Shown here: in pieces, positions 41,518 through 44,542 of the stretch
How the letters are laid out: each line of letters starts with the position of its first letter
Numbering within the stretch: position 1 is the first letter of the stretch
NCBI RefSeq assembly: GCF_015751905.1
Contig: NZ_JADOUF010000001.1
Location: 7,688,001 to 7,752,000, forward strand
Origin: Longispora fulva
Lineage (GTDB): Bacteria > Actinomycetota > Actinomycetes > Mycobacteriales > Micromonosporaceae
Direction of reading: 5' to 3'
Length of the DNA: 64,000 bases
The notes under the pieces: generated by a model
Told to the model about the DNA's origin: nothing
Databases searched by the model: none
The model's input: the letters and a program-made list of their open reading frames with translations, nothing else
Program-made: the position numbers and the translations under genes

Positions 41518-42048
41518 TTATGCCAGCGCGGCTTCCGCGTCCAGGGTGACCGACGCGGCGTGCACGACGGCGGCGATCCGCAGCGCGTCGTGGATCGCGT
41601 CCCGGCCGAGCCCGGCCTTGATCAGCGCCTTCTCGTGCGACTCGAGGCACACCCCGCAGCCGGTGATGGCGGAGACCGCGAGGCACCACAGCTCGAAGTC
41701 CACCTTGTCCACGCCGGGCTGGCCGATGACGGACATCCGCAGCCGGGCGGGCAGGGTCTGGTACGCCTCGTCGCCGATCAGGTGCTTGGCGCGGTAGTAC
41801 ACATTGTTCATGGCCATGATGGACGCCGCGGCCTTGGCGGCCTCGACGGCCTCGGGCTTGAGCCGGTCGGCGGCCTCTGCGGCGATCTCGCGGATCACCT
41901 GCGGGCTGCGGGCCGCGATCGCGCAGGCCAGCGCGGCGCCCCAGGCCTGCTGCTCGGGCAGCGTGGCGTTGCCGAGCACGGAACCCAGGTTGAGCTTGGT
42001 GTCCTTCGCGTACGCCGGCAGGGCGTCCTTCAGGGTGTCGAGACCCAC
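41518..42048 (-). CDS. ahpD: Alkyl hydroperoxide reductase AhpD-like (carboxymuconolactone decarboxylase family)
   Basis: 176 aa, all helical. The redox pair is in ITGCGVCLESHEKAL (CxxC followed by the conserved His), and the N-terminal helices match mycobacterial AhpD. AhpD acts as the thiol reductant of AhpC, using electrons from lipoamide. The gene lies 63 nt after ahpC on the same strand and ends with TAA and a strong hairpin. Co-transcription with ahpC matches the usual mycobacterial arrangement. Confidence 0.93.
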   Translation of the reverse strand: MGLDTLKDALPAYAKDTKLNLGSVLGNATLPEQQAWGAALACAIAARSPQVIREIAAEAADRLKPEAVEAAKAAASIMAMNNVYYRAKHLIGDEAYQTLPARLRMSVIGQPGVDKVDFELWCLAVSAITGCGVCLESHEKALIKAGLGRDAIHDALRIAAVVHAASVTLDAEAALA

Positions 42049-42111
42049 GGGGTGGTTCCTTTCGCGCGAACGAGGAAGGAGGGGGCCGTCAGGCCCCCTC
42101 CCCAGGGAGAA

Positions 42112-42663
42112 CTAGCTGGCCATCAGGGACTTGACGTCGAGGGTGTCGCCGCCCTTGTTCCAGTTGCACGGGCACAGCTCGTCGGTCTGCAGCGCGTCGA
42201 GGACCCGCAGGACCTCGGCGACGTTGCGGCCCACGGAGCCGGCCGTGACCATGGCGAACTGGATCTCGTTGTTCGGGTCGACGATGAAGGTGGCGCGCTG
42301 GGCGACGCCGTCCTCGCCGAGGATGCCGCAGGCCTCGGACAGCTCGCGCTTGATGTCCGACAGCATCGGGAAGGGCAGATCGCGCAGGTCCGGGTGGTCC
42401 TTGCGCCACGCGAAGTGCACGAACTCGTTGTCCACGGAGGCGCCCAGCACCTGCGCGTCACGGTCGGCGAACTCGCCGTTCAGCCGGCCGAACTCGGCGA
42501 TCTCGGTCGGACAGATGAAGGTGAAGTCCTTCGGCCAGAAGAAGACGACGCGCCACTTGCCCTCGTGGGACTTGTTCGTGATGGTCTCGAAGGCGTTGTC
42601 GGCGTCGAGCGACACGCAGGCGGTCAGCTCGTAGGCCGGGAAGTGGTCACCAACGGTAAGCAC
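42112..42663 (-). CDS. ahpC: Alkyl hydroperoxide reductase subunit C (peroxiredoxin)
   Basis: 183 aa. The peroxidatic Cys is in DFTFICPTEIAEF and the resolving Cys is in ELCPCNWNKGG, both typical of AhpC. It reduces peroxides and peroxynitrite. A third Cys next to the resolving Cys (CPC) matches the mycobacterial three-cysteine type reduced by AhpD. Divergent from the cimA leader; the shared 160-nt region carries a 7-bp inverted repeat (42775-42797). No oxyR gene is present in the window. Confidence 0.95.
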   Translation of the reverse strand: MLTVGDHFPAYELTACVSLDADNAFETITNKSHEGKWRVVFFWPKDFTFICPTEIAEFGRLNGEFADRDAQVLGASVDNEFVHFAWRKDHPDLRDLPFPMLSDIKRELSEACGILGEDGVAQRATFIVDPNNEIQFAMVTAGSVGRNVAEVLRVLDALQTDELCPCNWNKGGDTLDVKSLMAS

Positions 42664-42774
42664 AGAGGTTCTCCTGTAGGGCGGTTGATTGGAGTCATTC
42701 CAGATTGTGCCCTACGGGAGCGAAAATCGCCCACGAGGGCGACACTAGTATGAAGTAGCTCACATCAGTCCCGT

Positions 42775-42797
42775 TATCTGGGAGTGATTTCCAGATA
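42775..42797. promoter_or_regulatory. Candidate operator between ahpC and cimA
   Basis: TATCTGG (42775-42781) and CCAGATA (42791-42797) are separated by 9 nt. The AT-rich centre and spacing fit a LysR-type dimer site, but no regulator can be assigned. Confidence 0.35.
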
Positions 42798-42824
42798 GCC
42801 GGACGTTCTGGGAAGGTTGCCCAT

Positions 42825-42860
42825 GTGACCAGCCTGCTCATTATTGGCCCGGCGCGCTGA
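42825..42860 (+). CDS. Leader peptide of cimA (MTSLLIIGPAR)
   Basis: An 11-codon frame starting with GTG, with GGAAGG eight bases upstream. Codons 4-7 are Leu-Leu-Ile-Ile (CTG CTC ATT ATT); ATT is rare in this GC-rich genome. The stop TGA lies inside the first of two hairpins that precede cimA. The arrangement is that of ribosome-mediated attenuation of branched-chain amino acid operons. Confidence 0.75.
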   Translation: MTSLLIIGPAR

Positions 42861-42917
42861 CTTCGAGACCTACCTCGTCAGCGCGCAGACCTTCCGCACC
42901 CGCGGAGGGTCTTTTTT
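42852..42917 (+). promoter_or_regulatory. Transcription attenuator upstream of cimA
   Basis: Hairpin 1: GCGCGCTGAC (42852-42861) pairs with GTCAGCGCGC (42877-42886). Terminator: 42887-42897 pairs with 42902-42912 (11 bp, one G-U) and six T follow (42912-42917). The loop of hairpin 1 (42866-42876) can alternatively pair with GAGGGTCT (42905-42912) with a 3-nt bulge. A ribosome paused at the Ile codons would cover the left arm of hairpin 1 and could favour this alternative, allowing read-through into cimA. Confidence 0.75.
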
Positions 42918-42943
42918 GTTGCAGGAATTAACTGGAGTGAACG

Positions 42944-44542
42944 ATGGATTTCCAGGTCTTTGACACGACATTGCGTGACGGCGCCCAGCGCGAGGGCATC
43001 ACCTACTCGGTGGTGGACAAACTCGCCGTGGCCCGACTGCTCGACGAGTTCGGCGTGGGATTCATCGAGGGCGGCTGGCCGGGGGCGATGCCCAAGGACA
43101 CCGAGTTCTTCCGCCGGGCCCGCAACGAACTCCAGCTGAAACACGCGCTCATGGTCGCCTTCGGGGCCACCCGCAAGGCCGGCACCACGGCCGCCGACGA
43201 CCCGCAGGTCCGGGCCCTGCTGGACGCGGAGACCCCGGCCATCGCCCTCGTCGCGAAGGCAGACCTGCGCCACGTCGAGCGCGCGCTGCGCACCACCCCG
43301 GAAGAAAACCTCGCCATGGTGTACGACACGGTCACGCACCTCGTCGCCGAGGGCCGCCGCGTCTTCGTGGACTGCGAGCACTTCTACGACGGGTTCCGCT
43401 TCGACGCGGAGTACACGAAAAGGGTCGTGGAGAAGGCTCTCGAAGCCGGCGCCGAACGCGTCGTGCTGTGCGACACCAACGGCGGCTCCCTGCCGTCCGG
43501 CATCACCCGGGCCATCGCCGACCTGGGCGTCGACCCGGCGCTGCTCGGCATGCACGCCCAGAACGACACCTCCTGCGCGGTGGCCAACACCATCGCGGCC
43601 GTGGAGGCCGGCGTCCGGCACGTCCAGGGCACGGCCAACGGCTACGGCGAGCGACCCGGCAACGCGGACCTGTTCTCCGTCGTCGGCAACCTCGCCCTCA
43701 AACTCGGGCTCCCCGTGCTACCGCCGGGGTGCCTCGAGCAGATGGCGCGCGTCTCGCACGCCATCGCGGAGATCGCCAACATCGCACCCGACACCCACCA
43801 GGCCTATGTCGGGCACGCGGCCTTCGCTCACAAGGCGGGGCTGCACGCGAGCGCGATCAAGGTCGATCCGGAGCTGTACAACCATGTGGATCCGACCACC
43901 GTCGGCAATGACATGCGCATCCTGATCACCGAGATGGCCGGCCGGGCCAGCATCGAGCTCAAATCCCGTGAGCTCGGGCTGGACCTGGCCGGCCAACCCA
44001 CTGTACTCACCGCCGTCGCCGAGCGGGTCAAGTCCCTGGAGGCCCAGGGCTGGTCGTTCGAGGCCGCGGACGCGTCGTTCGCGCTGCTGGTGCGGTCCGC
44101 GCTCGGCGAGGTCAAAGCCCCGTTCGACCTGGAGTCCTACCGGGTGATCGTCGAGCACCGCCCCGACGGGGCCGTGGTCTCCGAGGCCACCGTGAAGATC
44201 GTGGTGGGCGGGGAGCGGACCATCGCCACGGCCGAGGGCAACGGGCCGGTCAACGCCCTCGACCAGGCGCTCCGCCTCGCGTTGGTGGAGTTCTACCCGG
44301 CGCTGTCGTCGCTGGAACTCGTCGACTACAAGGTCCGGATCCTGGCCGGCTCGCATGGCACCGACGCGGTCACCCGGGTGCTGGTGGAGTCCACCCACCG
44401 GGACGCCGAGCTGACCACGGTCGGGGTGCACGGCAACATCGTGGAGGCCAGCTGGCTGGCCCTGGTCGACGCGCTGACCCACGCGCTGCAGAAGGGCGGG
44501 GACCAGGCCCAGCACCGGGGCGGCGGCCAGAACCGGCCCTAA
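42944..44542 (+). CDS. cimA: Citramalate synthase (isopropylmalate synthase family)
   Basis: 532 aa. The catalytic HMGL-like barrel begins FQVFDTTLRDGAQREG, with metal-binding Asp and Arg. LLGMHAQNDTSCAVANT and HVQGTANGYGERPGNADL complete the active site. A linker leads to the LeuA dimer/regulatory domain (about residues 395-515). The sequence is of the CimA type that makes (R)-citramalate from pyruvate and acetyl-CoA, giving 2-oxobutyrate for isoleucine. A LeuA-like role cannot be excluded, but the Ile-rich leader peptide supports isoleucine synthesis. ATG 42944 is preceded by ACTGGAGTGAACG. It ends 19 nt before a convergent gene. Confidence 0.9.
   Translation: MDFQVFDTTLRDGAQREGITYSVVDKLAVARLLDEFGVGFIEGGWPGAMPKDTEFFRRARNELQLKHALMVAFGATRKAGTTAADDPQVRALLDAETPAIALVAKADLRHVERALRTTPEENLAMVYDTVTHLVAEGRRVFVDCEHFYDGFRFDAEYTKRVVEKALEAGAERVVLCDTNGGSLPSGITRAIADLGVDPALLGMHAQNDTSCAVANTIAAVEAGVRHVQGTANGYGERPGNADLFSVVGNLALKLGLPVLPPGCLEQMARVSHAIAEIANIAPDTHQAYVGHAAFAHKAGLHASAIKVDPELYNHVDPTTVGNDMRILITEMAGRASIELKSRELGLDLAGQPTVLTAVAERVKSLEAQGWSFEAADASFALLVRSALGEVKAPFDLESYRVIVEHRPDGAVVSEATVKIVVGGERTIATAEGNGPVNALDQALRLALVEFYPALSSLELVDYKVRILAGSHGTDAVTRVLVESTHRDAELTTVGVHGNIVEASWLALVDALTHALQKGGDQAQHRGGGQNRP

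Follow-up and report, generated by a model that had tools for sequence, protein, structure and literature searches.

A conserved leader with tandem isoleucine codons upstream of cimA in Longispora fulva, probably a ribosome-mediated transcription attenuator

The cimA locus

The window, i.e., the whole stretch of 64,000 nucleotides of Longispora fulva DNA that was analysed, contains a gene for (R)-citramalate synthase, cimA, that starts at 42944 and is identified by TIGR00977 (595.8 bits, E 5.4e-179, for a cut-off of 450). The enzyme makes a precursor of isoleucine and opens the threonine-independent route to this amino acid. On the other side, a divergent gene for an AhpC/TSA peroxiredoxin leaves a gap of 280 nt. 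Given this divergent arrangement, the transcript that enters cimA most likely begins within the gap, which holds a leader, a first hairpin (hairpin 1), and an intrinsic terminator, all located directly 5' of cimA. The features are as follows:

42112-42663, minus strand: gene for an AhpC/TSA peroxiredoxin, divergent from cimA
42809-42817, plus strand: probable extended -10 promoter element (TGG GAAGGT), from alignment by eye and column frequencies
42825-42860, plus strand: leader upstream open reading frame (uORF) with a GTG start, encoding MTSLLIIGPAR and a stop, from translation; probably leaderless
42840-42845, plus strand: tandem isoleucine codons ATT ATT, putatively regulatory, from codon conservation
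42852-42886, plus strand: hairpin 1, proposed ribosome-position sensor and antitermination hairpin, from its inverted repeat, folding, and covariation
42887-42917, plus strand: intrinsic terminator, with the stem-loop at 42887-42912 and the U tract running to 42917, from folding and covariation
42944-44542, plus strand: cimA, the proposed regulated gene, from TIGR00977

The terminator could have marked the end of an upstream gene, a reading that was ruled out because the neighbour with Pfam support is divergent. A search of 42600-43000 against a phage collection returned no near match, and a phage origin was rejected. The peroxiredoxin gene forms an oxidative-stress pair with a carboxymuconolactone decarboxylase/AhpD-like gene, and this pair (together 41518-42663, minus strand) has one intergenic region in common with cimA. 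An inverted repeat, GTCCCGTTATCTGG / CCAGATAGCCGGAC, is found at 42768-42804, 5' of the leader promoter, with 14-nt arms that are 86% complementary and a 9-nt spacer. In many relatives, a motif resembling TGTGGGA...TTCCA can be seen by eye around the same place. From its sequence, this repeat may be a transcription factor site that adds a second layer of control.

Conservation and distribution at cimA

The element was compared in several sets of loci. The protein-selected set comprises the best 30 cimA loci among 61 relatives, that of the window included, and spans 29 genera. In all 30, three features precede cimA: a short ORF whose end reads LII-x-x-stop or similar, a hairpin with GCGCGC, and a terminator resembling AGACCTCCC...GGGAGGTCT. 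The element is likewise present in 80 of 80 named loci fetched by the cimA protein, on the same strand and at most ~230 nt before the cimA match; part of their genomes also figure among the 30. These belong to Micromonospora, Catellatospora, a Dactylosporangium bin, Actinocatenispora, Glycomyces, Amycolatopsis, and others. A covariance model, R1, was built from the 30 protein-selected loci, and the sets fetched with it are biased to its sequence. One such set combines the 30 loci with 145 elements found with R1; the counts over these 175 elements lean towards the model, and a position before cimA was confirmed for part of the 145.

R1 matches 199 of 200 genomes of the family at E 0.01, a set that overlaps in part with the 30-locus and 80-locus ones. 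The sole genome devoid of a match (G031) has no cimA ortholog (best 7.2e-7) and no ilvB match at E 1e-200. The genome of L. fulva itself contains one strong match (E 6.2e-17), the next best being at E 0.013. At a threshold of E 0.001, R1 matches 153 of 249 genomes in a sample of the order and 170 of 296 in a sample of the class. cimA is present in 236 of these 296 at E 1e-60, and at least 66 of the 236 give no R1 match at E 0.001. Among the matches listed, the element adjoins cimA in 111 of the 113 class genomes that have both; in these 111, it lies on the same strand and its end is 28-233 nt (median 78) from the cimA match. On these comparative grounds, the cimA leader element is a real, well-conserved regulatory element.

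A few genomes depart from this scheme. One (G015) has an R1 match and only a partial cimA match. Family f40, with small genomes of 1.2-2.2 Mb, has cimA but no R1 match among the matches listed (e.g., G430, G448, and G465), G622 being the exception. In another genome, a second element (G640:C3:146-222, locus L110) precedes the apparent start of a second cimA copy that is truncated by the contig end.

The leader peptide and its isoleucine codons

The leader sequence, GTG ACC AGC CTG CTC ATT ATT GGC CCG GCG CGC TGA, was read at 42825-42860 as the 11-codon peptide MTSLLIIGPAR that the initial annotation had described, with tandem ATT isoleucine codons. The rarity ascribed to these codons was confirmed, as ATT accounts for 0 of the 18 isoleucine codons of the window's own cimA. 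All 175 of 175 elements contain an in-frame uORF with isoleucine, counting for each element the best of the three frames, and leader peptides are present before cimA in relatives at 30 of 30 and 80 of 80 protein-fetched loci. The tandem isoleucine codons are kept in 29 of the 30 protein-selected loci and in 79 of the 80 named ones; lack of conservation of the leader codons, which the initial annotation had named as evidence against its reading, is thus not what was found. At least two isoleucine codons in a row occur in 158 of 175 elements, and a single one in the other 17. The leader had also been characterised as Leu-Leu-Ile-Ile: the isoleucine half of this motif is conserved, but the leucine half is not, the preceding codon being one for leucine in 80 of 175 elements.

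The choice of codon is strongly biased. Over the 30 loci, ATT makes up 54 of 60 leader isoleucine codons against 11 of 480 in the cimA coding sequences (binomial 1e-81, a figure that ignores the kinship of the loci). The bias is weaker in the wider 175-element set, with 231 ATT and 144 ATC. The stop codon of the window's leader lies in hairpin 1, within its 5' arm, as initially stated. This placement is unusual, however, since the stop is at the hairpin base in 25 of 30 loci and inside the hairpin in 5.

The start of the leader

A GGGAAGG string at 42810-42816 had been taken as the leader's own ribosome-binding site, a view that the comparison does not favour: the string overlaps a -10-like box. 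By eye, positions 42809-42817 line up with TGGCA-AGCT / TGGCAGAGT in relatives, at an equal distance to the start codon. Statistics of the start region were gathered from 151 leaders having one candidate start codon. Shine-Dalgarno (SD)-like 4-mers were found in 6 of them versus 16.2 in shuffles, i.e., they are rarer than expected by chance. The column frequencies before the start (A at -11 in 60%, T at -8 in 40%, T at -7 in 49%, and C at -1 in 72%) display a conserved pattern, a -10-like box located 7-8 nt 5' of the start codon. A sigma-70 scan found no promoter at the leader. From the aligned sequences, the string is probably the -10 region of a promoter rather than a ribosome-binding site. 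This -10-like box, together with the absence of an SD sequence, suggests that the leader is probably leaderless, with a transcript beginning at its start codon.

Structure and spacing of the two hairpins

The stem of hairpin 1 is formed by 42852-42861 and 42877-42886, a perfect 10/10 bp helix of -21.2 kcal/mol when folded alone. It is followed by the terminator, with 11 bp, a 4-nt loop, and a stability of -19.6 kcal/mol; its six T are made of the last stem base and a T5 tail. The canonical terminator with six T that the initial annotation placed before the citramalate synthase gene is therefore found, at 42887-42912 plus the tail, with cimA starting at 42944. Folding of the region 42800-42943, proposed there as a check, gave z = -3.75, and none of 200 shuffles was equally good.

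Both helices are supported by covariation. In 101 wider sequences, 209 double-change cells were counted versus 36.8 in shuffles, and 16 of 21 pairs are changed on both sides (6 of 10 in hairpin 1 and 10 of 11 in the terminator); these loci were fetched with R1 and aligned to the R1 structure, which favours covariation, and they include one weak opposite-strand match (L203). Structures slid along the same 101 sequences yield at most 32 double-change cells, against the 209 of the unslid one. In the 30 near sequences alone, 8 pairs display double changes versus 3.2 in shuffles; here, sliding by one column gave 31 double-change cells versus 12, and the slid structure was higher on two of five measures.

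The spacing of the element is tightly kept. The distance from the first isoleucine codon to the 5' arm of hairpin 1 is 10-14 nt in 171 of 175 elements. Hairpin 1 is followed by the terminator at 0 nt in 159 elements, 1 nt in 14, and 2 nt in 2; the corresponding figures for the 30 protein-selected loci are 0 nt in 26 and 1 nt in 4. When folded without pseudoknots, the terminator of the window forms at >0.999 whether the leader is free, Ile-occupied, or stop-occupied, and no simple thermodynamic switch is thus visible.

Two further pairings were considered and rejected. That of GGAAGGT (42811-42817) with ACCTTCC (42889-42895) is absent, by eye, in L002 and other relatives, and its position 5' of the inferred transcript start also counts against it. 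An extension of the base of hairpin 1 into the terminator arm varies by family, again by eye, and no consistent pairing was found when the terminator 3' arm was left out.

The same layout at other genes

The arrangement is not restricted to cimA. In the L. fulva genome, ilvB (L126; G000:C1, 5' of 5328505) is preceded by a leader encoding MLQTQRIVVLS and a stop, followed by a hairpin and a terminator. Among 31 ilvB loci of relatives, 23 were parsed into the same layout, with a gap between hairpin 1 and the terminator of 0-1 nt in 21 of the 23. The other eight were dropped in parsing, five since the terminator was not found and three since the leader was not found, and at least one of them (L242) visibly has both. 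R1 itself gives matches before ilvB-like genes in five genomes (G244, G352, G047, G415, and G455), two of which (G415 and G455) have no cimA match at E 1e-60.

In the other two of the 113 class genomes with both element and cimA listed (G500 and G529, family f32), the element is found before an ilvA-like gene, not cimA (L106 2056-2137; L107 2052-2132), with leaders ending in GIT and a stop; among the matches listed, this family has no element next to cimA. The gene behind the f32 element belongs to the PALP family (Pfam, L107) and looks like threonine dehydratase, ilvA. For L106, L109, and L113-L115, the ilvB and ilvA labels come from likeness of sequence; for L107 (PALP) and L108 (TPP enzyme), they were checked with Pfam. 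Threonine dehydratase, the ilvA product, is the other entry step to isoleucine. From this distribution, the element may be placed at whichever isoleucine entry step is in use.

Second copies also occur in G575 (L111 2036-2115) and G502 (L112 2036-2120), before an ORF of ~105 residues. Their leaders encode MFALVIIM and MFTPRIII, respectively, each followed by a stop. The ORF behind L112 gave no Pfam match; its product may serve the pathway as a regulatory subunit.

Relation to known attenuators

In the trp-, his-, and ilv-type attenuators of E. coli, what becomes of a downstream terminator depends on where the ribosome stands on the control codons. The 2:3 antiterminator of the trp/his type, which acts on the left terminator arm, was not found in the cimA elements, in which the fixed trait is instead a pair of abutting hairpins. 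Searched against Rfam, T-box and riboswitch families included, the window gives three tRNAs only at the gathering threshold, and eight element loci yielded no match at E up to 0.1.

The closest likeness is to the actinobacterial ilvB (ilvBNC) attenuators. As far as described in the portions of the four reports drawn on here (PMC1262725; PMC11857589 on C. glutamicum; PMC13236596 on M. tuberculosis ilvB1; PMC8079986 on S. lividans ilvL), these resemble the cimA element in having a small uORF, frequently leaderless, with codons for branched-chain amino acids. At the stop of this uORF stands a first hairpin, with an intrinsic terminator directly after it and a biosynthetic gene downstream. The conserved sensor differs, being tandem isoleucine codons at cimA versus mixtures of valine, leucine, and isoleucine codons in the ilvB leaders. 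Furthermore, the C. glutamicum ilvB antiterminator is described, in the part of the source used, as sharing a trinucleotide with the terminator base (PMC11857589), a feature not consistently found in the cimA elements. According to the same excerpts, terminator mutations raise ilvB expression in C. glutamicum and a Val-to-Ala change in the leader abolishes valine control (PMC11857589), while in M. tuberculosis ilvB1, induction requires the LVVI codons, and the defect is relieved by a leader that lacks the terminator (PMC13236596). Leader-codon mutations of S. coelicolor ilvB are reported, in the section of Seliverstov 2005 (PMC1262725) concerned, to be without effect, which counts against codon sensing.

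Two other systems come close. In Corynebacterium ilvB-II (Narunsky et al. 2023, PMC10272879), as depicted in the part of the paper considered, a uORF overlaps P1, which is followed by a terminator P2 and a U run, as in the cimA element. Its proposed antiterminator would form between the loop of P1 and the right side of P2; such a pairing is possible in many cimA elements, without a species match. In that same part, ilvB-II concerns ilvB only and is described in the genus Corynebacterium, so that the cimA element differs by its gene. The LEU element of leuA (Seliverstov et al. 2005, PMC1262725) also has a run of codons for the end product before a related synthase gene. As described there, however, the LEU element forms a pseudoknot in which the leucine codons and the SD box of leuA together make up the base stem, whereas the cimA element has an intrinsic terminator.

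No report of a cimA attenuator was found by title or abstract among the best matches in the open-licence PubMed Central literature; the one paper there that came up for citramalate synthase together with a leader peptide deals with an archaeon. In the portion of Seliverstov et al. 2005 used here (PMC1262725), elements are given for trp, cys, ilvB, leuS, leuA, and ileS, cimA being absent from them. The accessible part of an S. lividans reannotation describes eight leader peptides, none at cimA, and makes no mention there of cimA or citramalate. By its layout, the cimA element appears to be kin to the actinobacterial ilvB attenuators, and it appears new in its gene, its tandem-isoleucine sensor, and its distribution.

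Proposed mechanism of attenuation

The element is very probably an isoleucine-specific, ribosome-mediated transcription attenuator of cimA. The initial annotation had proposed a leader-peptide attenuator keyed to isoleucine before this gene, and the conservation of the element (tandem isoleucine codons in 29/30 and 79/80 loci, R1 matches in 199/200 genomes) upholds this proposal. The uORF, its tandem isoleucine codons, the hairpins, their spacing, the link to cimA, and the distribution are shown by comparison between genomes; the leaderless start, the ribosome stalling, the direction of the switch, and the way in which termination is averted, as set out below, are inferred.

A bacterial ribosome covers the mRNA for ~15 nt past the first base of the P-site codon. 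With an isoleucine codon in the A site, its edge would stand at the foot of hairpin 1, versus over the 5' arm when it is at the stop codon, so that the position of the ribosome would decide whether hairpin 1 folds. The placement of the 5' arm (171/175) and the gap of 0-2 nt to the terminator yield a geometry that fits a ribosome sensor.

In the model, RNA polymerase would start at the leader GTG or within 1-2 bases of it, and the ribosome would load directly on the 5' end. When Ile-tRNA is sufficient, the ribosome would reach the stop codon and cover the 5' arm of hairpin 1, leaving the 3' arm single-stranded. The terminator could then close, and transcription would stop before cimA. Under isoleucine shortage, the ribosome would wait on the ATT codons with its front edge at the foot of hairpin 1, which could fold. 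The folded hairpin 1 would run right up to where the terminator stem starts, most likely hindering the closure of the stem's base in the polymerase exit channel; in some species, pairing between the hairpin 1 loop and the terminator's right side perhaps helps. With the terminator hindered, transcription would continue into cimA. This sign is expected since cimA is biosynthetic and hairpin 1 would fold when isoleucine is missing, and its folding should thus favour read-through. The published actinobacterial ilvB leaders act in the same direction (PMC13236596, PMC11857589).

The antitermination step and alternative explanations

During termination, the RNA exit channel holds the foot of the terminator stem. 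The RNA just 5' of this foot must run alongside, which a rigid duplex could not do, and steric antitermination is proposed on this basis: a hairpin ending where the terminator begins would block the closure of its base in the channel. The same module, equipped with different sensor codons, would then operate at cimA (Ile), at ilvB (Val/Leu/Ile), and, in one family, at ilvA. This model is put forward tentatively, with odds that stay well below even. The left terminator arm has no consistent upstream pairing partner over the 175 sequences and five ribosome positions: with a mask of 0, 9, 12, 13, and 15 nt from the isoleucine codon, 0 nt of this arm are paired in 29, 82, 120, 98, and 64 of the 175 sequences, respectively. 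A base-sharing antiterminator might instead arise if the loop region of hairpin 1 (42866-42876) paired with the right shoulder of the terminator (42905-42912). The initial annotation had suggested this pairing, with which the control by isoleucine would be the same. In the window, this pairing is indeed possible, at -8.0 kcal/mol, or -12.5 for the whole stretch between the arms. Over 167 unique sequences, the whole stretch between the 10-nt arms pairs at -8.24 versus -7.64 kcal/mol for shuffled loops (p = 0.003), and pairings of -8 kcal/mol or better occur in 93 of the 167 and in 24 of 30 near ones. However, loops swapped across species pair equally well (-8.19, sd 0.12), so that no species-specific match is present. 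The excess over shuffles is also gone overall with wider loop definitions (p = 0.30 and 0.36), and the terminal loop alone gives -4.82 versus -4.60 kcal/mol when shuffled (p = 0.08, 164 unique sequences). Moreover, the left arm of the terminator lies nearer, its stem being worth -19.6 kcal/mol. A similar pairing has been proposed for Corynebacterium ilvB-II, in the part of the study drawn on here (Narunsky et al., PMC10272879). The loop-terminator antiterminator is therefore possible and mildly favoured by the pairing energies, but somewhat doubtful as the operating mode; the steric mode appears about as likely, or somewhat likelier.

Hairpin 1 could also be mainly a polymerase pause hairpin that couples the ribosome and RNA polymerase, read-through being set by the speed of pause release. 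It is very stable and lies just 5' of the terminator, whose formation in every folded state leaves room for kinetics, and a transcriptional pause belongs to the model published for C. glutamicum ilvBNC, in the part of it considered here (PMC11857589). A pause alone leaves unexplained, however, why the 5' arm stands at the front edge of an Ile-stalled ribosome (171/175) and why hairpin 1 lies within 0-2 nt of the terminator (175/175), and pausing as the main role is accordingly an unlikely candidate. A very improbable alternative is a terminator that acts as a constitutive filter, or that forms the 3' end of a short RNA, in which case the uORF would be incidental and cimA controlled at its promoter, e.g., via the 42768-42804 repeat. 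The 14-nt, 86% complementary arms of this repeat, and the TGTGGGA...TTCCA-like motif seen by eye in many relatives, would suit such a promoter control. Were the uORF incidental, however, one would not expect tandem isoleucine codons to be in frame and strongly biased to ATT in 29 genera, nor to stand at a fixed distance from hairpin 1, nor the same arrangement to recur before ilvB and an ilvA-like gene.

Biological significance

As a system, the cimA element offers a compact natural case in which to study how a hairpin that touches a terminator affects termination. The control of cimA would be separate from that of ilvB, whose leaders also carry valine and leucine codons. A switch on cimA keyed to a single amino acid, if true, would explain how the threonine-independent route is tied, class-wide, to the isoleucine supply.
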